From Thermomonas sp. (GTDB lineage: Bacteria > Pseudomonadota > Gammaproteobacteria > Xanthomonadales > Xanthomonadaceae), in contig NZ_JAQSDO010000015.1 of NCBI RefSeq assembly GCF_029945965.1, forward strand, positions 933,952 to 997,951: DNA of 64,000 bases, given 5' to 3'. Positions 4,145-44,833 of this stretch are shown piece after piece. Below the pieces are notes generated by a model. The model ran no database searches. It was not told where the DNA came from and saw nothing but the letters and a program-made list of their open reading frames with translations. Numbering within the stretch: position 1 is the first letter of the stretch; the number at the start of each line of letters is the position of its first letter. Both the position numbers and the translations under genes were made by a program.

Positions 4145-5083
4145 ATGAGCGTCCCCTTTGCTATTGCCGGCGTCCAGATGCACGTGCCGGCCATGACCAG
4201 CAATCTCGTTGCCATGCTCCATCGGATGGATCTGGTGATGCTGCGATTCCCCTGGACCCAGATGATCGTGTTCAGTGAGCTGGCCATGTGCGGACCAGTG
4301 CCCAACCACCCGGTGGCATTGCCGGGCCCGGAAGAAGAAGCATTGCAGGCCGCTGCCGCCAAACATGGCGTGTGGCTGATCACCGGTTCGGTTTTTGAAC
4401 GCGGCGCGGATGGTGCGCTTTACAACACGGCATCCGTGATCGATCCGACGGGCACGGTCGTTACCCGTTACCGCAAGATGTTTCCATTCCGCCCGTACGA
4501 AGCAGACGTTACCGCCGGCAAGGAATTCTGCGTTTTCGATGTGCCATCGGTCGGCCGCTTCGGTCTGTCGATTTGCTATGACATCTGGTTGCCGGAAACC
4601 ACGCGCACCCTCACCGCCATGGGTGCCGAAGTGCTGCTGCATCCGGTGCTGACCGGCACCATTGATCGTGACGTTGAGCTTGCCATCGCTCGCGCAACCG
4701 CTGTGCAGTTCCAGTGCTATGTATTCGACATCAACGGATTGGCCGCAGGCGGCATCGGTCGGTCCTGCATTGTCGATCCGTCGGGGACGGTACTTGCACA
4801 GGCGGCAGGCGCCTCGGAAACACTGCCCGCCGAAATCGATTTCGCACGGGTCCGTCGTCAGCGCGAGACCGGGGTCAATGGCCTGGGCCAGCCCTTGAAG
4901 AGTTTTCGCGACCGCGAGGTCGACTTCTCAGTCTATCGCCGCGACTCCAACGTGGCTGCCTTCCTTGACACGCTCGGCCCCCTGGCCATGCCGGCCAAGG
5001 GCGGCATGGCCGGCATGGGGGCGGGAGCGCCTGAAACTGTCGCGCCGCTTTCTGCACACATCCCGGGCAAGATGACCTACTAG
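4145..5083 (+). CDS. carbon-nitrogen hydrolase (nitrilase superfamily)
   Basis: 312 residues, cytoplasmic. The nitrilase triad is complete: Glu45 in FSELAMCG, Lys111 in RYRKMFPF and Cys144 in SICYDIWLPE. Enzymes of this fold hydrolyse amides, N-carbamoyl compounds or nitriles, or transfer the acyl group through the cysteine thioester. The sequence resembles aliphatic amidase/N-carbamoyl amidase branches, but the substrate cannot be assigned. The C-terminus carries an unusual Gly/Met/Ala-rich tail (KGGMAGMGAGAPE). GAAGGAA lies about 6 bases before the ATG. It is first in the cluster, 181 bases ahead of the decarboxylase. With that partner, hydrolysis of a polyamine- or arginine-derived amide is a reasonable guess. 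Confidence 0.85.
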   Translation: MSVPFAIAGVQMHVPAMTSNLVAMLHRMDLVMLRFPWTQMIVFSELAMCGPVPNHPVALPGPEEEALQAAAAKHGVWLITGSVFERGADGALYNTASVIDPTGTVVTRYRKMFPFRPYEADVTAGKEFCVFDVPSVGRFGLSICYDIWLPETTRTLTAMGAEVLLHPVLTGTIDRDVELAIARATAVQFQCYVFDINGLAAGGIGRSCIVDPSGTVLAQAAGASETLPAEIDFARVRRQRETGVNGLGQPLKSFRDREVDFSVYRRDSNVAAFLDTLGPLAMPAKGGMAGMGAGAPETVAPLSAHIPGKMTY

Positions 5084-5264
5084 CCTTGAATCCGTCAGAG
5101 GCCGTCCACGGACTGTAGGTTGTGGCGCGCCACCACAAATTCATCACACTCTTAATAGGGAGTATCCAGTCAACAAATCATCAGCGCCCCCTCGAAATCG
5201 TCGGGCCAAGCGCGACACACCCATAGCTGGCGAGCCTGAATCCCGCCCTGAATTTGGTACCGGC
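5084..5264 (+). other. 181-base gap with an orphan Shine-Dalgarno sequence
   Basis: No gene is assigned. A strong AGGGAG (5157-5162) is not followed by ATG, GTG or TTG within range. Seven bases later comes GTC, in frame with the decarboxylase, and the frame is open from there to the ATG at 5265. No clear terminator or promoter is visible, so read-through from the nitrilase gene is likely. Confidence 0.5.
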
Positions 5265-8039
5265 ATGGAATTCGCGCGAAGCGAAGACAGAGCGCCAGCG
5301 CCGCTCAGTGATTACTACTCCGCATCGCACCTGCGCAATGATCGTTGGACGTCCCTGAAGAGCGTTGCCAAGCAACTCGGCAACGTTACCGATAGCGAGA
5401 GTCGCGAAAAGTTGCTCGACAAGGCTCACTCCCTGCTCTGGGCGCTGGGTCCCATCGAAGCCTACTGGGCGTTTCCCGGGCGCCGCGGGCTTGAACAACT
5501 GCATCGGATCCTTGCCCGTGATGATCACGAAGCATTCTCGATTGCCATCAACCGGATGGTTCGCACGTTCCAGACCGGTGCATATCGCAGGCACCTGGAC
5601 GAGTTCGTAATCGATCCCGAGCGCGAATCAGCGGATGAGCCAGAGCACATGGAGCCGCAGCACAAGACACGTGCGCGGCCCTTCTTTGAAGTGCTGATCG
5701 TGGACAACATGAGTGCAAGCCAGCAGGATTCGCAATGCCAGGCACTTCGCGATGAACGCCAGCCTGACGATAGATTTGTTTACGAGCCGGTGATCGTCGG
5801 TTCGTTCGAAGACGCACTGATCGCCGTACTGTTTAACCACGACATCCAGTCCGTGGTGGTGCGATACGACTTCGCATTCGCCTCCGCCAACAAGTTGGAA
5901 GTTCTCAACCGGTACCTGCGCCGGGTCGGTGACGAAAACCTCGCTTCGATGGATCCGGAAGACTACGGCCCAGAGCTTTGCCGGTTGTTACGGAAGATCC
6001 GCCCGGAGCTGGATATTTTCCTCGTGACTGATCGGTCGGTGGAACAGATCGCTTCCCGGAACCTCGGCGAGTGCGCTCGCGTGTTCTACAACCAGGAAAA
6101 TTTCACCGAGCTGCACCTGAATATCCTGCGTGGCATCAGTTCCCGTTACAACACGCCTTTCTTCACCGCCTTGAAGGAGTATTCCAAGCAGCCAACAGGT
6201 GTGTTTCATGCAATGCCGATCAGCCGGGGCAAGTCGCTGATCCGTTCGCATTGGATACAGGACATGAGCGAGTTCTACGGCATGAACATCTTCATGGCGG
6301 AAACTTCAGCGACGTCCGGTGGCCTTGACTCCCTGCTGGAACCGGTTGGTCCAATCAAGCGGGCACAGGAACTGGCGGCGCGTGCTTTTGGTGCCAAACA
6401 CACATTTTTCGCGACAAACGGTACGTCAACCTGCAACAAGATCGTGGTCCAGGCCATCGTCAGGCCGGGCGACATCGTATTGGTCGACCGCGACTGCCAC
6501 AAATCGCACCACTACGGCATGGTGCTCTCCGGTGCCCATGTCATCTATCTGGATAGCTATCCACTCAGCGAATACTCGATGTACGGGGCGGTCCCGCTGC
6601 GTGAAATCAAGCATCAGCTACTGAAGCTCAAGCGGGCCGGAAAACTGCACCGCGTGCGGATGCTGCTGCTGACCAACTGCACCTTCGACGGCATCATCTA
6701 TAACGTAGAGCGGGTGATGGAAGAATGCCTGGCGATCAAGCCGGACCTGGTGTTCCTGTGGGATGAGGCCTGGTTTGCCTTCGCGCGCTTTTCGCCCACC
6801 TATCGCCAGCGTACGGCCATGGCAACGGCGCAAGTGCTGCGTGACCGATACCGCGCGCCGGCAAGTGTCGAGCGTTACGCGGCACACAAGCAGGAGATCG
6901 AAGGGCTGAGCGACGAGGAACTGCTCGACGTGCGGCTGATCCCCGATCCCGGCAAAGCCCGCGTTCGCGTCTACGCCACGCAATCCACGCACAAGACCCT
7001 GACCTCGTTGCGACAGGGTTCGATGATCCATGTGCATGACCAGGACTTCAAGGGCGAAGTCGAACAGGCGTTCCACGAAGCCTATATGACGCATACATCC
7101 ACGTCGCCCAACTACCAGATCATCGCCTCGCTCGATGTGGGCCGACGGCAGGTTGAACTGGAGGGCTTCGAACTGGTGCAGAAGCAGATCGAGGCGGCGA
7201 TGTCGATGCGCAAGGCGATCGACTCGCATCCACTGTTGCGTCGCTATTTCAAGGTGCTGTCGGTCAATGAGCTGATTCCCGAGGCACACCGCCAATCGAA
7301 CATCAAATCCTACTGGGACTCCGAGTCGGGCTGGAACGACACCTGGAATGCCTTTGCCAAGGACGAGTTCGCGCTGGACGCCAGTCGCGTCACACTCGCA
7401 GTAGGCAAGGCGGGTTTCGATGGCGACACGTTCAAAAACGAAATCTTGATGAACAAGCACGGCATCCAGATCAACAAGACCTCGCGCAACACCGTGCTGT
7501 TCATGACCAATATCGGTACGACGCTGTCTTCCGTTGCGTATCTGGTCGAAGTGCTGGTGCGCATCGCCCGCGACCTTGAATCGCAATCCGAGGACGCCAG
7601 TGCGGTCGAACAGCGTGCATTCGAAGGCAAGGTTAAATCACTCACCGAAGACTATCCGCCACTACCAGATTTCTCGCGATTCCACGACAGCTTTCGGCGT
7701 GGCCTCGACGAAGGAACCGACGAGGGCGACATCCGTTCCGCATTCTTCCTCGCATATGACGAAGCCAAGTGTGAATACTTCCTGCTGGAGGACGGCTCGA
7801 TGGAGGCGGCCATGGATGCGGGTCGCGAACTGGTATCGACGGCTTTCATCATTCCCTATCCGCCCGGATTCCCGATCCTGGTGCCGGGGCAAATCATCTC
7901 GAAAGAAATCCTGCGATTCATGCGTGCGCTCGACGTCAAGGAAATACATGGCTACAGGCCTGACCTTGGCTTGCGCATCTTCACCGAGGAGGCGCTCGGC
8001 GACTCCGCACTGACGCATTCGATGCCTACGGAGGCCTGA
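5265..8039 (+). CDS. Orn/Lys/Arg-type PLP-dependent decarboxylase, long form
   Basis: 924 residues. Residues ~1-130 are an unrecognised helical region. Residues ~135-300 resemble the response-regulator-like wing domain of bacterial inducible decarboxylases (EVLIVDNM, VIVGSFEDALIAVLFNHDIQ, PELDIFLVTDR). The PLP fold-type I core follows: FFATNGTSTCNKIVVQA, DRDCHKSHHYG, FLWDEAWFAF and the Schiff-base lysine Lys577 in QSTHKTLTSLRQ. The C-terminal lobe has YPPGFPILVPGQ. The family decarboxylates arginine, lysine or ornithine to agmatine, cadaverine or putrescine; the exact amino acid is not readable here. At over 900 residues it is longer than E. coli AdiA, CadA or SpeC (~710-760). Its stop is 2 bases before the ATP-grasp gene, so the two are translated together. 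The start is uncertain. Confidence 0.85.
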   Translation: MEFARSEDRAPAPLSDYYSASHLRNDRWTSLKSVAKQLGNVTDSESREKLLDKAHSLLWALGPIEAYWAFPGRRGLEQLHRILARDDHEAFSIAINRMVRTFQTGAYRRHLDEFVIDPERESADEPEHMEPQHKTRARPFFEVLIVDNMSASQQDSQCQALRDERQPDDRFVYEPVIVGSFEDALIAVLFNHDIQSVVVRYDFAFASANKLEVLNRYLRRVGDENLASMDPEDYGPELCRLLRKIRPELDIFLVTDRSVEQIASRNLGECARVFYNQENFTELHLNILRGISSRYNTPFFTALKEYSKQPTGVFHAMPISRGKSLIRSHWIQDMSEFYGMNIFMAETSATSGGLDSLLEPVGPIKRAQELAARAFGAKHTFFATNGTSTCNKIVVQAIVRPGDIVLVDRDCHKSHHYGMVLSGAHVIYLDSYPLSEYSMYGAVPLREIKHQLLKLKRAGKLHRVRMLLLTNCTFDGIIYNVERVMEECLAIKPDLVFLWDEAWFAFARFSPTYRQRTAMATAQVLRDRYRAPASVERYAAHKQEIEGLSDEELLDVRLIPDPGKARVRVYATQSTHKTLTSLRQGSMIHVHDQDFKGEVEQAFHEAYMTHTSTSPNYQIIASLDVGRRQVELEGFELVQKQIEAAMSMRKAIDSHPLLRRYFKVLSVNELIPEAHRQSNIKSYWDSESGWNDTWNAFAKDEFALDASRVTLAVGKAGFDGDTFKNEILMNKHGIQINKTSRNTVLFMTNIGTTLSSVAYLVEVLVRIARDLESQSEDASAVEQRAFEGKVKSLTEDYPPLPDFSRFHDSFRRGLDEGTDEGDIRSAFFLAYDEAKCEYFLLEDGSMEAAMDAGRELVSTAFIIPYPPGFPILVPGQIISKEILRFMRALDVKEIHGYRPDLGLRIFTEEALGDSALTHSMPTEA

Positions 8040-8041
8040 TC

Positions 8042-9502
8042 ATGACAGCACACAAGAAACTCAAGAACATTTCAGAAGTCCGTCGCTTCTTCCATCGTCA
8101 CGAGGAGCCCATCTACTTCATCAGCGCGACCAACTTCAACCTGCTCGGTCTCGATGAATGGGCCAAGAACTTCAGCTTCATCTCCTATATCGACTGCTAC
8201 GACGGCCAGCATCCGAACGTGTTCTGCCCGTCGGAACAACCGCATGCCGAATTCGAGTCCATCGAAGACATCAACAACTACCTGTTGCAACACAAGGAAG
8301 TGATCGATCACATCGCGCAGCGCGGTGGCGAGCCGAAGTTCATCTTCCTGATGTTCGACGAACAGACAGAGGCGCTGTCGAAAGAGCTTGGCGCGAAGAT
8401 ATGGTTTCCGCCCGCCGAGTTGCGCAGCCGCCTGGACAACAAGATCGAGACGGTCCGGATCGGCAACAAGGCAGGGGTTCCAAGCGTTCCGAATGCCTTG
8501 TCGCAGATCAATGACTACAAGCATCTGACCGAGGTTGCCGCGAAAGCCAAGCTCGGCGATGACCTGGTGCTGCAATCGGCATATGGCGATTCCGGGCACA
8601 CCACGTTCTTCATCAAGTGCGAGGCTGATTTTGCCAAGCACGCGGATGAAATCATCGGCCATGGCGAGATCAAGGTGATGAAGCGGATCAACTGCCGCGG
8701 CGCCGCGATCGAGGCCTGTGCGACCAAGTCGGGAACGATTGTCGGACCCTTGATGACAGAATTGGTCGGCTTCGGTGAACTGACGCCTTACCGGGGCGGC
8801 TGGTGCGGCAATGAAATATTCGCCAATGCATTTTCTGCCCGCGTCCGCGCCAAGGCCCGCGATTACACATTCGCCTTCGGCGAGCAGCTGCGAAAGGAAG
8901 GCTATCGGGGTTATTTCGAGCTCGACTTCCTGATCGACATCAAGACCCGCGAAATCTTTCTGGGTGAATTGAACCCGCGAATCACTGGCGCAAGTTCCAT
9001 GACCAACCATGCGGCATTCGCCCATGCCGATGCGCCGCTGGCGCTGTTTCATCTCCTGGAATTCTCGGGTGTCCCGTTCAACGTGGACATCCCCGAGCTC
9101 AACGCCCGCTGGGCCGATCCACAAAATATTGATTCGTGGTGCCAGATGGTGATCAAGCACACCGACGATTCGATTGATCGCATTACCCGTGCGCCGGAAA
9201 CGGGGATATGGCGGATGGACGACGATGGCAAGGTGACGTTCTCGCGTTTCGATTATCACAGGCGTGCCGTGCGCAACGAGAACGAGGCGTTCTTCCTGCG
9301 TATCCTCAAGACCGGTGACTACCGCTATGAAGGCGCCGATCTGGGCATCCTGGTGACCCGCGGCCGGGCCATGACCGACGGCTTCGCGCTCACCGAACGA
9401 TCACGCAAGTGGATCGACGGGATTCGCGGCCAGTATCTGGCCGAGCCGCTCACAGGGCCGGTAAAAGAGGAAATCGCCGCGCACGATTTCAAGTTTCTCT
9501 GA
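8042..9502 (+). CDS. ATP-grasp ligase (biotin-carboxylase-like fold)
   Basis: 486 residues. The N-terminal domain (~1-130) resembles a pre-ATP-grasp domain. The ATP-grasp core shows VRIGNKAGVPSVPNALSQI, DLVLQSAYGDSGHTTFFI (glycine-rich phosphate loop), MKRINCRGAAIEACAT and the metal-binding GELNPRITGASS (Glu309, Asn311). There is no biotinyl domain or carboxyltransferase nearby, so a carboxyl-amine ligase that activates an acid as acyl phosphate is more likely than a true biotin carboxylase. It starts 2 bases after the decarboxylase stop and ends 39 bases before the C45-type gene. With those neighbours it plausibly forms an amide between an amino acid and another amine; this is inference. Confidence 0.8.
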   Translation: MTAHKKLKNISEVRRFFHRHEEPIYFISATNFNLLGLDEWAKNFSFISYIDCYDGQHPNVFCPSEQPHAEFESIEDINNYLLQHKEVIDHIAQRGGEPKFIFLMFDEQTEALSKELGAKIWFPPAELRSRLDNKIETVRIGNKAGVPSVPNALSQINDYKHLTEVAAKAKLGDDLVLQSAYGDSGHTTFFIKCEADFAKHADEIIGHGEIKVMKRINCRGAAIEACATKSGTIVGPLMTELVGFGELTPYRGGWCGNEIFANAFSARVRAKARDYTFAFGEQLRKEGYRGYFELDFLIDIKTREIFLGELNPRITGASSMTNHAAFAHADAPLALFHLLEFSGVPFNVDIPELNARWADPQNIDSWCQMVIKHTDDSIDRITRAPETGIWRMDDDGKVTFSRFDYHRRAVRNENEAFFLRILKTGDYRYEGADLGILVTRGRAMTDGFALTERSRKWIDGIRGQYLAEPLTGPVKEEIAAHDFKFL

Positions 9503-9541
9503 TGGCAGCCTTGGCATAACTCAAGTCACCAGGATGTCATC

Positions 9542-10516
9542 TTGAACATCACGTTTACCGCGATGGCAGACGATGCGTCCGGACACGCCTGGCAGGGTGT
9601 GTTCGGGCGTTTATGGCCTGCGTATCGTCAGTGGTATGTCCGCGACGGCAGCCTGGCGCGCCCAAGCTTCCTGGCGTGCCGAAGAGCGCTTGAATTGCAC
9701 ATGCCGGAGTTCGTGCCGCGATGGGCGAAACTGGCCGAGCTAGCAGGTGGCGGCGACCTGGCAGCCAGGTTCCTCAGTCTCTGGTGCCCGCCGGCTTATG
9801 ACAGTGCCTGCTCGCAGGCCATCTGGCCGGGGCACGAGCCGCTGTTGGTTCGCAATTACGACTATTCTTCGAAACTCTTCGACGCGCTGATCCTGCATAC
9901 GCAGTGGGGTACGCGTCGAGTGCTGGGCACCAGTGATTGTCTGGTAGGCCTGGTCGATGGAATCAACGAAGATGGCTTGGCGCTGTCGCTGACGTTCGGA
10001 GGCAGGCGCGAGGTTGGCGTGGGATTCGGCGTTCCAATCGTGCTGCGTTATGTACTCGAGACATGCTCAACGGTCGCCGAGGCAGCGGTGGCACTTGCCC
10101 GCATCCCGACGCACATGGCCTACAACGTCACCGCTCTCGACGCCAGCGGAGCCCGTGTAACGGTTCACCTGTCGCCCGACAGACCCGCTCAAGTGACGAC
10201 CGCAGCCGTGGCTACAAACCATCAGCCTGGCTTCGAAGTCAGCGGCCATGTGTATCAAACAGCCACCATAGAACGCGAACATTATCTGTTGCGGCGGTTG
10301 ACCCTGCACCAGGAACCACAGGACAAATTCATCGCCGCATTCCTGCGTCCGCCGCTTTTTTCACTCGCGCATGAACGCAGCCGTGCAACCCTGTATACCG
10401 CCGCCTTCCGACCCAGGCAGAAAACGCTCACCTACCTCTGGCCGAATATCCAGTGGACGCTGGACGTCAATCATTTCGAGCCTGGTAGCAGGCACATTTA
10501 CTATCCGACGGATTAG
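9542..10516 (+). CDS. C45-type Ntn-hydrolase (acyltransferase/amidohydrolase)
   Basis: 324 residues from a TTG at 9542. AGGA (9531-9534) sits 7 bases upstream, while the first ATG (9563) has no ribosome-binding site, so TTG is preferred. The sequence fits the penicillin acyltransferase-like family C45: Cys90 in DSACSQAIW would become the N-terminal nucleophile after self-cleavage, followed by LLVRNYDYS, LVGLVDGINEDGLALSLTFGG and VVATNH-like AVATNHQPG. Such enzymes swap or remove acyl groups on amines. No signal peptide is visible, so it should act in the cytoplasm. It is last in the cluster and is followed directly by a terminator. A final acyl-transfer or deacylation step is inferred. Confidence 0.8.
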   Translation: MNITFTAMADDASGHAWQGVFGRLWPAYRQWYVRDGSLARPSFLACRRALELHMPEFVPRWAKLAELAGGGDLAARFLSLWCPPAYDSACSQAIWPGHEPLLVRNYDYSSKLFDALILHTQWGTRRVLGTSDCLVGLVDGINEDGLALSLTFGGRREVGVGFGVPIVLRYVLETCSTVAEAAVALARIPTHMAYNVTALDASGARVTVHLSPDRPAQVTTAAVATNHQPGFEVSGHVYQTATIEREHYLLRRLTLHQEPQDKFIAAFLRPPLFSLAHERSRATLYTAAFRPRQKTLTYLWPNIQWTLDVNHFEPGSRHIYYPTD

Positions 10517-39900: not shown

Positions 39901-40569
39901 ATGCACGCATCCCCTGACAAGGCTGCCACCAAATTCCAGGCACACATCCTCGAAGCCGGATTCCCCTGCCTGGGTGCAAAGTCCGCCCTGCGCCGTGGTC
40001 AACTTGAACAGATCGTTGCCGGCGACTTGCGCTGTGGTCGGCACGATGCAGCAATCCTCGACGCGCTCGTCGACTTCAGCAGGCGCCACGACCGCGATTC
40101 AGTCTTTTTCTCCTGCGTGGTGCTGTTCCCCGGCACCCCTTTGCTCGACGAACCCTGCTTTGAAGCCGCGCTCTGGGACAGGCTTGCCGCGCTGCATCGG
40201 CTTGATGCGAGCCAGCATGCATGGGATCCACGGGTCAGCAGCGATCCTTCATCGCCCAACTTCAGCATGAGCCTTGGTGGACATGCGTTCTATGTCGTTG
40301 GCATGCACCCCGGCGCAAGCCGGCAGGCACGTTGCTTCGAGACTGCCGCACTGGTCTTCAATCCGCACAGCCAGTTCGAAACGCTGCGTGCGAATGGGCG
40401 TTATGACGCGTTGAGGGATACCGTGGCCAGCCGCGACCTTGCCTTTGCCGGATCCCGCAACCCGATGCTCGCGGCCCACGGCAGCGCGTCGGCAGCACGC
40501 CAGTACAGCGGCCGGGCGGTAGCGCCGGACTGGGCTTGCCCGTTCCAGACATCGAAGAGCCAGCAATGA
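39901..40569 (+). CDS. YqcI/YcgG (GntA-like) haem-dependent N-hydroxylase family
   Basis: 222 residues from MHASPDKAATKF. Conserved features are GFPCLGAKSALRRG, AWDPRVSSDPSSPNFSMSLGG, VVGMHPGASRQARCF, ALVFNPHSQFE and ARQYSGRAVAPDWACPF. The family includes GntA, a haem enzyme that N-hydroxylates an arginine-derived intermediate of the cyanobacterial toxin guanitoxin; most members are untested. No strong ribosome-binding site precedes the ATG. The stop overlaps the DUF1989 start by four bases. A role in oxidising a guanidino or amino group is inferred. Nothing here argues for guanitoxin itself. Confidence 0.85.
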   Translation: MHASPDKAATKFQAHILEAGFPCLGAKSALRRGQLEQIVAGDLRCGRHDAAILDALVDFSRRHDRDSVFFSCVVLFPGTPLLDEPCFEAALWDRLAALHRLDASQHAWDPRVSSDPSSPNFSMSLGGHAFYVVGMHPGASRQARCFETAALVFNPHSQFETLRANGRYDALRDTVASRDLAFAGSRNPMLAAHGSASAARQYSGRAVAPDWACPFQTSKSQQ

Positions 40570-41156
40570 TCCAGGTAATCCCTCCCCGGTCCGGGGTTGC
40601 CTTCCATCTGGCTGAAGGCCAGACCCTGCGCGTAATCGATCCTGAAGGCGAACAGGTCGCCGACCTGATTGCCTTCAATGCGCTGGAGACCAGCGAGTGG
40701 CTGTCCTCTGGCAGAACGCTGGATTACGCTAGCTCGATTCGCATCGGCAGCGGCGACACCCTGTATTCCAACCGCAGCACGCCGATGCTGGTGATCGGCC
40801 AGGACGACGTGGGATGCCATGACTTCCTGCTTGCCCCTTGCTCGGCAGAGATGTTTCGCAAGCTTTACGGCGACGAAGCCCCGCACCGCGGCTGTTTCGG
40901 CAATCTCGCCGCGGCATTGGCGCCCCATGGCATCGGACCGGATGCCATTCCCACGGCCTTCAATGTCTTCATGAACGTGCTGGTGGATGGCACGACCGGG
41001 CGACTGAGCGTGGAGCCACCGCGTAGCCGCGCCGGCGATGCCACCGAGTTCCTGGCGCAGATGCCGCTGATCATCGGCCTGACGGCTTGTTCGGCCGGCC
41101 AGTCCAACAATTTCCGTTACAAGCCGATCCACTACCAGATCCTCGATGCACGCTGA
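40566..41156 (+). CDS. DUF1989 / urea-carboxylase-associated family protein
   Basis: 196 residues. Family motifs are RVIDPEGEQVADLIAFNA, DVGCHDFLLAPCS, TAFNVFMNV and LTACSAGQSNNF with a conserved cysteine. DUF1989 proteins include the two subunits of carboxyguanidine deiminase in guanidine degradation, so action on a guanidine-like or carbamoyl compound is possible. No urea or guanidine carboxylase is nearby. It is coupled to the upstream GntA-like gene (ATGA) and overlaps the ATP-grasp gene by 11 bases. Confidence 0.85.
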   Translation: MIQVIPPRSGVAFHLAEGQTLRVIDPEGEQVADLIAFNALETSEWLSSGRTLDYASSIRIGSGDTLYSNRSTPMLVIGQDDVGCHDFLLAPCSAEMFRKLYGDEAPHRGCFGNLAAALAPHGIGPDAIPTAFNVFMNVLVDGTTGRLSVEPPRSRAGDATEFLAQMPLIIGLTACSAGQSNNFRYKPIHYQILDAR

Positions 41157-42216
41157 CACGGGTGGCGTGGGCCGTTTCGAGCAGTTGCCGAAATGGCTGA
41201 ACCTCGTGCCGATGGTGCTGCAGTGGATTTGGCTGGGATTGCGCCATGGCAGTTTCACGTTGCCATCGGCGGCGAACCCCGGGATCACGTCTGGTGGCCT
41301 GGTCGGCGAAGGGAAGATGGAGTATTTCGACGCGATGGGTGAGACGGGACGCGCTGCCACCGCGCGGCATGTCGTCATCATTGCTGCCGCGCAGCGGGGA
41401 CTACGCGATCTCCTGTTGCGCATGCAGGACGCGGGTTTGGACTTCCCAGTGGTCGCCAAGCCCGACATCGGCTGGTGCGGCTATGGGGTTCGCCTGCTGC
41501 ACCAAGCAGAAGATCTGGCGGACTATGCAAGGAGGTTCCCGGCCGGCGCCGACTTCGTTCTGCAGCGATACCTGCCTGATCCGGGCGAAGCCGGCCTGTT
41601 CTACATGCGCCATCCCGGAGAAGCTTCTGGGCGCTTGATCGGCATCCTGCTGCGTGACTATCCGGTTGTCCTAGGCAATGGCCACGACTGCATCGCCACC
41701 TTGGTGGCCAAGGATGCGCGGATCCAGCGCGGCAGCGCTGATCCCATGCATGAGATCAGTTACGACGCCACGCGCATTCCCCTGCCTGGCGAACAAGTCC
41801 GGCTGTCCACGGTGGCCTCGACCCGGGTGGGTGGACGCTATCGGGATGGCAGCACGCTGGCGACACCGGCGCTGGTCGCCGCCGTGGACGCGATCGCCAA
41901 GGACATGGGCGATCCGGCGACACGCCCGTTCCTGGTTGGCCGCTACGACGTGCGCTACCGCGATGAGGAATCCCTGCAACGCGGCGATTTCACGATCATG
42001 GAGGTCAACGGCGCCGGCTCCGAAGCGGTGCACGCCTGGGATCCTAAATATCGCATCCGTGACGTTTACCGCATCGTGTACGCCAAGCAGCGACGACTGT
42101 TCGCGATCGGAGCCGAGCAGCGGCGCCGCGGTCATCGACCCATAAGTCTGGCGGCACTGGCCCGCCTCTACTGGCGGCAGCAACGCCTCATCGCGCGTTA
42201 TCCCGCATCCAATTGA
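41146..42216 (+). CDS. ATP-grasp ligase with hydrophobic N-terminal segment
   Basis: 356 residues. An amphipathic/hydrophobic segment near the start (LVPMVLQWIWLGL) suggests membrane association. ATP-grasp elements are PVVAKPDIGWCGYGVRLL, FVLQRYLP and the metal site FTIMEVNGAGSEAVHAWDP (Glu286, Asn288). It resembles D-Ala-D-Ala ligase-type enzymes but lacks the cell-wall context. It begins inside the DUF1989 gene and its last 19 bases overlap the tail of the convergent flippase-like gene. Ligation of an amino acid to a lipid or small molecule is inferred from the facing lipid operon. Confidence 0.78.
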   Translation: MHADTGGVGRFEQLPKWLNLVPMVLQWIWLGLRHGSFTLPSAANPGITSGGLVGEGKMEYFDAMGETGRAATARHVVIIAAAQRGLRDLLLRMQDAGLDFPVVAKPDIGWCGYGVRLLHQAEDLADYARRFPAGADFVLQRYLPDPGEAGLFYMRHPGEASGRLIGILLRDYPVVLGNGHDCIATLVAKDARIQRGSADPMHEISYDATRIPLPGEQVRLSTVASTRVGGRYRDGSTLATPALVAAVDAIAKDMGDPATRPFLVGRYDVRYRDEESLQRGDFTIMEVNGAGSEAVHAWDPKYRIRDVYRIVYAKQRRLFAIGAEQRRRGHRPISLAALARLYWRQQRLIARYPASN

Positions 42217-43130
42217 GCCGCCTGACACGCTGCGGCCGCCGGCCTGCGATGCAGCCAACGCCACAGCAACCAAGGCACGCCCAGCGTCGCAAACGGCAGC
42301 AGCCCATACAGGGCACGATAGGCGAGGATCGCGGCCAGCAAGCCCGGACGGGCCTCCGCGGGTACGCTCGCCAGCATCGCCGCCTCGAACACCCCCAAGC
42401 CACCCGGGGCATGACTGGCTACCCCGATCGCCTGCGCCAGTACACACGTCACCACGAAGGCCGGCCAACTGGAGAAGGTTCCCGCCGGCAACAGGACCCA
42501 CAAGGCGGTCATGCCGGCGGCTGCCTCCAGCAAGGCAATGGGGAAGATCGAAGCCGCATGTTGCAGCCGGGGGACTATCCGGCGCCTGGATCCCGGTGCC
42601 TGGGTTGCGCCACCACCGCGCCGCCGACCGAACACGGCGAACGCCATTACGCCGCCGACCATGAGCCAAGCCGACAGCGGCGAGTGCAGGGCGGCGGCGC
42701 CAATGGCCAGACTCGAGGCGGCGCCGGCGAAAACGGCAGCACCCACTGCAAACAAGATGCGGAGCAGCTGCGGCCGATCCGCGTGATACGCCTTGCGGCG
42801 CACCAGCGTGCCAAGCACCGCGTGCCAGCCCAGGACGTGGCCCAACGCGTGGCTGGCAGCGCCGGTGTACATGGCGGTGACAGTGGAAACCTCCAGGCTT
42901 GGCTGCCTTCGCACCGCCCATGCTTCGATCAGGGCCAATCCCATGAAACTCCCAGCGGTCGCAAGCACGCACTCCCACAGGGACACCGCACCGATCCGCG
43001 AGAACGCCATCCGCAGCGCGGTCCAGTCCATCGCGACCGCCTGGCGTCGGATCTCGAATAGGGTGAGCCCGAGAATCACCACCGGCAACAGCACCGGGCC
43101 GGCGCGGCGCAAACATGGCCACGCCGTCAC
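42198..43130 (-). CDS. flippase-like membrane protein (PF03706, MprF N-terminal type)
   Basis: 310 residues from a GTG at 43130, whose GTGA overlaps the olsA-like stop; this decides the start over the ATG at 43160. About eight membrane helices. The hallmark is ASHAPGGLGVFEAAML, followed by AYRALYGLLPF, as in the lysyl-phosphatidylglycerol flippase half of MprF. No aminoacyl-transferase domain is present. It probably translocates the lipid made by the two upstream acyltransferases. A basic loop (FGRRRGGG, SRRRIVPR) is notable. Confidence 0.8.
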   Translation of the reverse strand: MTAWPCLRRAGPVLLPVVILGLTLFEIRRQAVAMDWTALRMAFSRIGAVSLWECVLATAGSFMGLALIEAWAVRRQPSLEVSTVTAMYTGAASHALGHVLGWHAVLGTLVRRKAYHADRPQLLRILFAVGAAVFAGAASSLAIGAAALHSPLSAWLMVGGVMAFAVFGRRRGGGATQAPGSRRRIVPRLQHAASIFPIALLEAAAGMTALWVLLPAGTFSSWPAFVVTCVLAQAIGVASHAPGGLGVFEAAMLASVPAEARPGLLAAILAYRALYGLLPFATLGVPWLLWRWLHRRPAAAACQAAQLDAG

Positions 43131-43936
43131 GGCGCAGGCACCCCATTCGTCAATCCCCAAGCAACCTGCTCATGCAGGCGCATGGCCAATCTGCGCCGGT
43201 CCGCGAAATCGGAAGGGATCAACGATTGATGGAAAATCACCTGCAGGCGGGCACCCCGCAAGCGCAGGAATGCGCGCAGGTGAGGCAGCAGCGTCATCTC
43301 ACGGTGGTAGGCGTAGAGATCGCGGAGCCATGTCTCGTTCACGTCCCGGCCATCCACTTCCAGCAGCCGCAGCGTGAATCCCTGGACCGGGGACCCGAAC
43401 CCAGCCGGCGCCATCAGGACCTCGAGGAGGCTCGGGCGGAAAGGCAAGACTGCGCTGCCATCACTTGACGTGCCTTCGGGAAACAGAACAACTACGCCAC
43501 CGGCTCTCACTGCCTCGGCGAAGCCCGCTGCCGCGGCAACAGCTTGGCGCGGTCGACGGCTGATGTAGACGGTGCGCTGCAGGTTCGCCAACCAGCCGAA
43601 TAAAGGCCAACCCGCGACCTCCTGCTTGGCAACGAAGCGCATCGGCCCCAAGCTGCCCAGGATCGGGATGTCGAGGTAGGAAAGATGGTTTCCCACCCAC
43701 ACCGCGCCCTGATCGAATGACGGATTGCCCCGCAATTCGACACGTATGCCCAGGATGCGAAGCGCCAGCGAATGGATCAGGCGCGGCAACGGCCCTGGCA
43801 GGCAGCGTGGACACAGCACGCGCCAAAACGCCTGCGGCATGACCAGCACAACCGCTACGGCGATCAGCAGCACCCCGCGCACCCACGCCCGCAGGACACC
43901 AGCGCCTGATCGGCGGCCGGGGCTTGCCGGAGTCAC
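43127..43936 (-). CDS. OlsA-like 1-acylglycerol/lyso-ornithine lipid O-acyltransferase
   Basis: 269 residues from a GTG at 43936 overlapping the upstream stop (GTGA); longer starts extend far into the olsB-like gene and are rejected. An N-terminal membrane helix (GVLLIAVAVVLVMPQ) precedes the PlsC domain with HX4D in GNHLSYLDI and FPEGTSSDG. Paired with an OlsB-type enzyme, it should add the second, ester-linked acyl chain to a lyso-aminolipid. A role as PlsC in phospholipid synthesis is the alternative, but the operon partner favours the former. Confidence 0.8.
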   Translation of the reverse strand: MTPASPGRRSGAGVLRAWVRGVLLIAVAVVLVMPQAFWRVLCPRCLPGPLPRLIHSLALRILGIRVELRGNPSFDQGAVWVGNHLSYLDIPILGSLGPMRFVAKQEVAGWPLFGWLANLQRTVYISRRPRQAVAAAAGFAEAVRAGGVVVLFPEGTSSDGSAVLPFRPSLLEVLMAPAGFGSPVQGFTLRLLEVDGRDVNETWLRDLYAYHREMTLLPHLRAFLRLRGARLQVIFHQSLIPSDFADRRRLAMRLHEQVAWGLTNGVPAP

Positions 43937-44724
43937 GATGAATGTGCCGAGATATCGGGTGCGTCTGGCTGCTGGAAATGCCGCTGATAGCGAGGAGTGA
44001 GCTTGCTGGTCGGCATCACGATGCAGACATCGACACAGTCGAATGCATCGTCGCGGGCGCCTCCGTCGCCAATCCATGCGCCGGCACGCAGGTAGCCTCG
44101 CACCAGTGGTTCAAGGGCCCGTTGCCCGCGTCTTCCGTCGCTTCGGTCGGTGGGCAGCGAGGCGGGTTCCACTCGACGCCCCGGCAACGCCACCGGACGC
44201 AGGTGCGGCGGCGCCAGATAGGCATGATGCAGCAGGGCCAGCTGCGCCTGGATGGAACGTTCCGGACCCTCGCGCAGGCTCGCGCAACCGAACAGCAGTT
44301 CGATGCGATGGCTCGCGCCGTATTCCGCAATGCCACGCCACAGCATCTGCAAGACCGGCAGCGCGCGGTACTCGCGCTTGACGCAACTCCGGCCAAGTTC
44401 CAGCAGGCGCAAACCAGATCCAAGCAGCGGCGCGAGGTCGAATTCCGCGCTGCTGTAGAACGCATCACCTGCACCCAGCCGTTCTGCCGGCAGCAGGCGA
44501 TAGTTGCCGACCACTTGTCCCGCCGCTGCCGAGCGCGCATGGTCGATGACCAACAGGTGGTCCATGATCGCGTCATGGGGATCGACATCGAGTCGGCTGC
44601 CAAGCATCGCCTGGTCAGGACGCGCACCGTATTCCTCGTAGAAAACCTCGTATCGGAGTCGCTGCGCCTGGGCGATTTCATCGCCTGTACGCGCCAGCCT
44701 GACTTCGATCTGTTGCAAGCCCAT
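43933..44724 (-). CDS. OlsB-like N-acyltransferase (GNAT-fold, acyl-ACP dependent)
   Basis: 263 residues from the ATG at 44724 (GGGAG five bases upstream; a GTG at 44727 is too close to it). Features of the ornithine-acyl-ACP acyltransferase/haemolysin family are EVRLARTGDEIAQAQRLRYEVFYEEYG, DVDPHDAIMDHLLVID, VGNYRLLP, LELGRSCVKREYR and IELLFGCASL. The reaction would put a 3-hydroxyacyl chain on the alpha-amine of ornithine or a similar amino acid. It is first of three genes joined by GTGA overlaps. The actual amino acid is not known. Confidence 0.85.
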   Translation of the reverse strand: MGLQQIEVRLARTGDEIAQAQRLRYEVFYEEYGARPDQAMLGSRLDVDPHDAIMDHLLVIDHARSAAAGQVVGNYRLLPAERLGAGDAFYSSAEFDLAPLLGSGLRLLELGRSCVKREYRALPVLQMLWRGIAEYGASHRIELLFGCASLREGPERSIQAQLALLHHAYLAPPHLRPVALPGRRVEPASLPTDRSDGRRGQRALEPLVRGYLRAGAWIGDGGARDDAFDCVDVCIVMPTSKLTPRYQRHFQQPDAPDISAHSS

Positions 44725-44833
44725 CACATCTCCCGCCGAGTGGTCATATCCATGCCATGGTCAATGCCTAACGCATGGCCCGACCGAGCGATAGCATTAT
44801 CGCGCCCGAGTCAACGTGGGATGACGGCAGCAC

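Follow-up and report, generated by a model that had tools for sequence, protein, structure and literature searches.

Two facing operons of a Thermomonas genome, linked by an ATP-grasp ligase family, as a candidate pathway for a modified aminolipid

Gene content and conservation of the cluster

The DNA considered here (hereafter the window) is a stretch of 64,000 nucleotides from a Thermomonas sp., belonging to contig 15 of a genome (G000) of 3.24 Mb in 20 contigs. Between positions 39901 and 44727 it carries six genes which, upon re-reading of the sequence, form a forward trio facing a reverse trio (Table 1); the first encodes a GntA-like N-oxygenase, a DUF1989 enzyme and an ATP-grasp ligase, the second OlsB-like and OlsA-like acyltransferases and a flippase-like membrane protein. 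It is proposed that these convergent operons may constitute one pathway in which a phosphorus-free aminolipid would be synthesized, modified by ligation and translocated, a reading whose core we hold to be about evenly balanced between right and wrong. The end of the GntA-like gene and the start of the DUF1989 gene share an ATGA, an 11-base overlap joins the latter to the ATP-grasp gene and two GTGA overlaps join the OlsB-like to the OlsA-like gene and the OlsA-like to the flippase-like gene; these junctions and the gene neighbours, described in an original prediction made from the same DNA, were all borne out. The OlsB-like gene starts at the GTG at 44727 or, possibly, at the ATG at 44724.

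Table 1. Positions in the window of the six genes and of the overlap between the two operons
Feature	Position	Strand	Details
GntA-like YqcI/YcgG heme-thiolate N-oxygenase gene	39901..40569	+	222 aa; PF08892, NF041366
DUF1989 metal-dependent enzyme gene	40566..41156	+	196 aa; PF09347
ATP-grasp carboxylate-amine ligase gene, linking both operons	41146..42216	+	356 aa
Convergent overlap of the two operons, 19 bases	42198..42216		seen in the sequence; absent from the original prediction
MprF N-domain-type (LPG_synthase_TM) flippase-like membrane protein, without synthase domain	42198..43130	-	NF033480, PDB profile match
OlsA-like O-acyltransferase gene	43127..43936	-	269 aa; PF01553, NF052553
OlsB-like GNAT N-acyltransferase gene	43933..44727	-	264 aa; PF13444, NF052554

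The OlsB-like protein contains an OlsB-type GNAT domain (PF13444, 98 bits for a cut-off of 22.4) and its top NCBIfam models are those of OlsB, the scores lying under the equivalog cut-offs (231 of 350 bits with NF052554 and 211 of 320 with NF052555); a single-sequence search of the PDB gave no match for it. The OlsA-like protein is an acyltransferase (PF01553, 1.7e-20) in which the motifs HX4D (HLSYLD) and FPEGT are intact, and it also scores under the equivalog cut-offs (160 of 300 bits with NF052553, 152 of 300 with NF052552). Apart from the OlsB of the cluster, no OlsB or OlsF was found at E 1e-10 in G000 or in G002 and G161, two genomes of the family that share the cluster; the OlsF fusion is present in five of seven sampled congeners of G000, in the one congener of G002 and in one of two of G161, and in these three genomes the cluster OlsBA apparently substitutes for OlsF.

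The flippase-like protein matches NCBIfam NF033480 (2e-30) over the MprF N-domain only, with a score under the cut-off set for the whole protein, and the profile of its family (A6) aligns with residues 37–321 of the 882 of the PDB MprF/LpiA structure 6lvf (2.9e-49), so that the homology of the family to MprF covers the whole transmembrane domain. The protein had been predicted to be a PF03706 flippase; the relation to the MprF N-domain holds, whereas Pfam finds no PF03706 domain in the window copy, one of three such members of a 15-member alignment in which the other 12 do match. In 15 of the 20 loci L047–L066 (numbering of the ATP-grasp loci described below) the flippase gene converges on that of the ATP-grasp protein, which it overlaps or approaches to within 98 bases in 14 loci and from which it lies 4.3 kb away in L055.

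With the ATP-grasp protein as query, 198 genomes of the family yielded ten matches at E 1e-3, seven of them strong. All six genes occur in the same convergent order in three of these genomes, G000, G002 (locus L048, Lysobacter profundi) and G161 (L050, Lysobacter lacus), and in a metagenome-assembled genome (L049), the proteins of the latter three being ~32–76% identical to the six of the window; in L047, which lies at a contig end, the forward trio is present together with a portion of the flippase gene. The failure of the six genes to co-occur in relatives had been named as what would speak against the original prediction; they do co-occur, in three further genomes, and the layout is therefore more than a product of chance.

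The ATP-grasp family and its genomic neighbours

The ATP-grasp protein has no match in Pfam and none in NCBIfam; its membership of the ATP-grasp fold is given by a profile match to ATP-grasp proteins of the PDB (best 3.7e-11) together with its predicted structure. Residues 17–321 align with cyanophycin synthetase, and K105, E286 and N288, which we take to be the catalytic Lys and the Mg-binding Glu and Asn, are kept in 43 of 43 aligned sequences. Some relatives are recorded as D-alanine--D-alanine ligase, a label that was rejected for the window protein, which has no Dala_Dala_lig_C match, and for the relative at L140, which scores 22.6 bits for a cut-off of 24. Nor is a membrane anchor claimed for the hydrophobic helix 16–34, whose mean hydropathy is ~0.6 (1.07 in the best 19-residue stretch) and which falls inside the range aligned with cyanophycin synthetase.

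A scan of contigs found 332 relatives, the best 80 of which were kept and combined with four of six from the family into 84 distinct loci (86 entries, L011 being L048 and L012 being L050), whose domains were found by iterated profiles; some gene calls come from a simple in-house scoring and neighbours without a Pfam run were named by eye. At 47 of these loci the ATP-grasp has a VTT (DedA-type) domain, as a fusion or in an adjacent gene; its partner in the window is the MprF-type flippase domain. DUF1989 is found at 19 loci, GntA at 18, the flippase at 15 and OlsB/OlsF at 11. L047–L066 and the window form a clade of 21 rows (support 100/99), most of which have GntA–DUF1989.

The ATP-grasp family is the link joining the two operons of the window to one another and to lipids, because its members adjoin OlsB/OlsF, or lie near it, in eight or more layouts. 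OlsB-OlsA-flippase faces the ATP-grasp operon in the window and in L048–L050; an OlsF-like piece of 339 aa precedes GntA in L051; OlsB lies within the forward operon, between DUF1989 and ATP-grasp, in L060; OlsB is followed by VTT-ATP-grasp in L118 and OlsF by VTT-ATP-grasp in L105; ATP-grasp is followed by OlsF in L013–L016, L145 and L163 and directly by OlsB in L166, on a Variovorax plasmid; finally, in L137–L144 VTT-ATP-grasp is followed ~3 kb on by OlsF, with DinB-like, TANGO2 and YHS genes in between. L140 is a seven-gene run (VTT, ATP-grasp, DinB-like, TANGO2, YHS, MauE/DoxX-like and OlsF) whose DinB-like and MauE/DoxX-like matches fall under the Pfam cut-off, and in Vibrio sp. THAF191d OlsF lies 3.2 kb from ATP-grasp. 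The DinB-like, TANGO2 and YHS genes accompany OlsF and ATP-grasp in L137–L145 and L013–L016, names given by eye in L137–L145 and with Pfam for L140; among the loci of g5, a genus of the window's family, Pfam was applied to the DinB-like protein of L015.

In a tree of 104 rows the distribution of those linked (22) and unlinked (47) to OlsB/OlsF requires at least eight changes, the remaining 35 being unscored for too little flank; L048, L050, L014, L015 and L150, being duplicated or nearly identical, were kept out of the tree, five hand-picked plasmid matches out of 28 were taken in, and L161, apparently the same record as L056, is uncounted. Among 348 genomes sampled across the phylum (E 1e-20), ATP-grasp is present in 15 and OlsB/OlsF in 209, and all 15 have both (hypergeometric 3.9e-4, relatedness ignored), OlsB/OlsF lying within 5 kb of ATP-grasp in 11 of them. 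Furthermore, the 49 genomes searched because they hold an ATP-grasp locus all encode OlsB/OlsF, with best matches of 2.7e-44 or better; for this test 50 of the 80 loci were chosen (the genome of L082 being left out), those omitted being mostly near-duplicates from Azospirillum and Komagataeibacter or short contigs, and one of the 49, Mariprofundus erugo, seems also to be in the phylum sample.

Four genomes of g5 have two OlsF, one resident and one beside ATP-grasp. In a tree of OlsF the latter falls among linked OlsF of organisms outside the family, apart from the resident one, which suggests that ligase and synthase moved into g5 together; some long branches meet in this tree and linked and unlinked OlsF are close in lineages other than this one (for instance in L141 and L051).

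A link of the Bacteroidota loci to glycine lipids was also looked for: OlsB/OlsF is found in the available flanks of none of the eight loci, and seven of the eight (L114 being left out) lie in genomes encoding OlsB/OlsF. In Komagataeibacter, Novacetimonas and Acetobacter musti (L067–L075 and L167) ATP-grasp is divergent from a methyltransferase gene, mostly accompanied by a PF14518 iron-containing redox enzyme, a neighbourhood that is a candidate for the ornithine-taurine lipids of the Acetobacteraceae.

The predicted pathway and its alternatives

The gene content, the intact motifs, the conservation of the layout and the repeated association of ATP-grasp with OlsB/OlsF and with translocator-type proteins are seen directly; from these we infer all the substrates, the order of the steps and the role of GntA–DUF1989 in what follows. 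The OlsB-like enzyme would attach a 3-hydroxyacyl chain to the nitrogen of an amino acid, which is probably ornithine or one closely related to it; the OlsA-like enzyme would add a second acyl chain to give an acyloxyacyl amino acid. The ATP-grasp ligase would then activate a carboxylate, most likely the free carboxylate of the OlsBA lipid, as an acyl phosphate and couple this group to either an amine or an amino acid, after which the MprF-type protein, a predicted translocator sharing the even chance given to the core as a whole, would flip the product to the outer leaflet. The additional unit, probably arginine or another guanidine, may be prepared or trimmed by GntA and DUF1989 through N-oxidation and metal-dependent hydrolysis, a step to which we attach less confidence than to the core.

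Acylation and ligation could also follow one another in the opposite order, the ATP-grasp ligase first making a dipeptide-like soluble head group that OlsB would then acylate. Indeed, the ATP-grasp relatives of solved structure join free amino acids or peptides, and the OlsB-like proteins are divergent enough to accept another substrate; on the other hand, the VTT fusion of the relatives fits a membrane substrate better. Furthermore, an excerpt of PMC12186959 reports that an OlsF (VCA0646) closing a putative four-gene operon yields ordinary ornithine lipid in E. coli, and we infer that this operon matches those seen here; likewise, according to an excerpt of PMC12493201, ornithine lipids are modified after their synthesis, also by transfer of taurine. 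We thus judge the head-group-first order quite unlikely and keep to ligation on the finished OlsBA lipid.

As to the two enzymes expected to provide the amine, guanidine N-oxygenation is on record for the YqcI/YcgG family, to which the window protein belongs (PF08892, 2.8e-50; GntA model NF041366, 241 bits, above the cut-off of 145). Its single-sequence PDB search gave nothing; a profile of 19 sequences did match AglA (1.3e-5), aligning Cys23 with Cys44 of the latter, and this heme-thiolate Cys is present in 17 of the 19 copies. The DUF1989 protein (PF09347, 4.8e-54; PDB 3oru, 2e-24; trimethylamine N-oxide (TMAO) demethylase 9q59, 3e-11) displays three zinc cysteines, Cys92, Cys110 and Cys175, which are conserved in 20 of 20 sequences and have cysteine counterparts in the alignment with 3oru and 3di4. 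It scores under the equivalog cut-offs of UAAP1 and UAAP2 (88.6 of 284.7 and 80.2 of 206 bits) and of TMAO demethylase (69.2 of 1100), and the UAAP models suggest a possible link to the carboxyguanidine deiminases, which are said to be proteins formerly annotated for urea metabolism. Of 200 genomes sampled in the order, 14 encode DUF1989 and 12 encode GntA (a partial copy in G689), and in each of these 12 the genes of the pair are neighbours.

Despite the NCBI name GntA, a guanitoxin label was rejected, no other guanitoxin gene standing beside it; partner genes for guanitoxin or D-cycloserine are absent from the cluster and from the two flanking genes scanned, the genome-wide search being for DcsG, of which G000 has a likeness on another contig (C19:105237-106040, 8.7e-36). 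In Rhodanobacter (L052, L053, L056 and L059) a second ATP-grasp resembling DcsG, the D-cycloserine synthetase, precedes the flippase on the same strand (3e-27 for the L053 copy). In three genomes of one genus an EAL-like gene lies near the GntA–DUF1989 pair, which there has no ATP-grasp with it.

Enzymes of this kind could also make, in the manner of D-cycloserine, a soluble guanidine-derived metabolite through N-hydroxylation by GntA, hydrolysis by DUF1989 and ligation by ATP-grasp; the reverse operon would then make and flip an ordinary ornithine lipid and the two would be mere neighbours. Such independence is unlikely in view of the association that the ATP-grasp family keeps with OlsB/OlsF and VTT proteins where GntA–DUF1989 is lacking, of the flippase facing ATP-grasp in the 15 loci mentioned above and of the presence of OlsB inside the forward operon in L060.

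Several findings weigh against an aminolipid pathway common to both operons. The OlsB-like and OlsA-like proteins both score under the NCBI curated cut-offs, so that ornithine can only be presumed to be the amino acid; ATP-grasp is found in none of the seven sampled congeners of the window genome; Ser replaces the heme Cys in two of the 19 GntA copies (L061 and L063); and a single clade accounts for eight of the 11 genomes in which the genes are linked in the phylum sample, which leaves few independent events there. In 47 of the 104 tree rows, each with at least 5 kb on both flanks, there is no OlsB/OlsF within 5 kb, and a Salinivibrio kushneri record with the annotated order VTT, "D-alanine--D-alanine ligase", DinB and NRDE has no OlsF within 6 kb on either side of this VTT-ATP-grasp-DinB-NRDE run. 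Regulation by Pho was rejected: with a consensus pattern of 18 bases allowing up to three mismatches, one match was found in the window (51634) for 4.05 expected, and none near the cluster. Finally, ten of the 12 GntA–DUF1989 pairs (L151–L160) are without ATP-grasp, which accompanies the pair in G000 and G707, and no neighbour is common to all ten; GntA–DUF1989 is thus an independent module of two enzymes that in one clade is combined with the ligase. Of the original idea of synthesis, modification and flipping of an amino-acid lipid, one lipid pathway for both operons, with ligation at the expense of ATP and a translocator, remains the best reading, since the gene order of several unrelated lineages ties ATP-grasp to OlsB/OlsF, whereas N-oxidation of the head group is the weaker, putative part.

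The 47 unlinked rows would also suit a ligase acting on another membrane lipid or in the undecaprenyl cycle, with OlsB/OlsF as neighbours through shared stress regulation. Flipping of undecaprenyl phosphate is a known function of VTT/DedA proteins, and at L112, L117, L124 and L147 the 1.3 kb downstream of ATP-grasp contain a BacA/UppP-like gene, an identification run against Pfam for the L112 copy. We consider such a role very improbable, given that OlsB/OlsF is present in 49 of 49 and 15 of 15 ATP-grasp genomes and that ATP-grasp is a direct neighbour of OlsB or OlsF in eight layouts. Five BacA/UppP-like genes, those of L108, L112, L121, L124 and L126, form one cluster.

If the modified aminolipid is nevertheless the product, the ATP-grasp ligase may fill a gap among the enzymes known from bacterial lipid metabolism. 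Each individual fold of the cluster is already known; neither Pfam nor NCBIfam has a match for the ligase family, and a description of how it pairs with aminolipid synthases and translocators seems to be lacking among the literature matches listed. The latter, in openly licensed papers combining ornithine lipid with flippase/OlsB, DedA, YHS/TANGO2/DinB or translocators, contain no description of the pathway and no aminolipid translocator, in agreement with the original view of the combination as uncharacterised; for ATP-grasp with ornithine lipid the openly licensed papers yielded only a review (PMC11631085), in which the ATP-grasp term is confined to the reference list.

A broader and doubtful extension may tentatively be envisaged: the ATP-grasp family could be a widespread, unnamed head-group ligase that, with its own translocator of the MprF or DedA/VTT type, makes two-unit aminolipids, its branches possibly including those that make the ornithine-taurine lipids of the Acetobacteraceae and the glycine-serine lipids of the Bacteroidota, and the unit of the window branch being N-oxygenated by GntA–DUF1989. 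Neighbours of the oxidation and N–O type (PF14518, DcsG-like) would fit a putative N-oxygenated head group, and we know of no published lipid with such a group. Under stress aminolipids take the place of phospholipids, and they also serve as signals; if the extension were true, the ligase family and its paired translocator would give candidate genes for the addition of a second unit and for translocation, and the prediction of lipid structures from genomes of Proteobacteria and Bacteroidota would be helped.

Elsewhere in the window, a separate operon-like run on the forward strand (4145–10516) encodes a carbon-nitrogen hydrolase (PF00795), an Orn/Lys/Arg decarboxylase-like protein of 924 aa (PF01276), an ORF at 8042–9502 that has no Pfam match and an AAT-type acyltransferase (PF03417), and possibly represents another amine or peptide pathway.

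Comparison with known systems

Like the OlsBA and OlsF ornithine-lipid synthases (NF052554, NF052553 and NF052615), the cluster combines a GNAT N-acyltransferase with an HX4D O-acyltransferase in one operon; unlike them, its copies stay under the curated cut-offs and are followed by a flippase gene that faces a ligase operon. The hydroxylation of ornithine-lipid head groups by OlsC and OlsE is likewise a tailoring of aminolipids, yet neither enzyme is seen among the six genes, and both belong to enzyme families different from those found here.

The ligase shares with cyanophycin synthetase, GshAB and RimK the fold, the conserved Lys and Glu/Asn and, presumably, the carboxylate-amine chemistry; it differs from them in the low identity to its best matches (~17–21%), no curated family being found for it, and it stands alone, whereas relatives may be fused to a VTT domain. 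With the guanidine N-oxygenases GntA, AglA, ChmN and DcsA the window protein has in common the YqcI/YcgG family and the heme-thiolate Cys, but its gene is coupled to DUF1989 and ATP-grasp, without any other guanitoxin or cycloserine gene beside it.

Known aminolipids in which a second unit is carried by the amino acid are the ornithine-taurine lipid cerilipin and the glycine-serine lipid flavolipin (excerpts of PMC12493201, PMC10191378 and PMC4484230); the first of these sources lists both head groups, the second calls the biosynthetic route of flavolipin unknown and the third reports the ornithine-taurine lipid in Gluconobacter cerinus. As to translocation, the flippase family aligns over nearly its full length with the N-terminal flippase domain of MprF/LpiA (PF03706; 6lvf), from which the window protein differs in that it has no lysyl transferase domain and adjoins OlsBA instead of being part of an aminoacyl-phosphatidylglycerol synthase.

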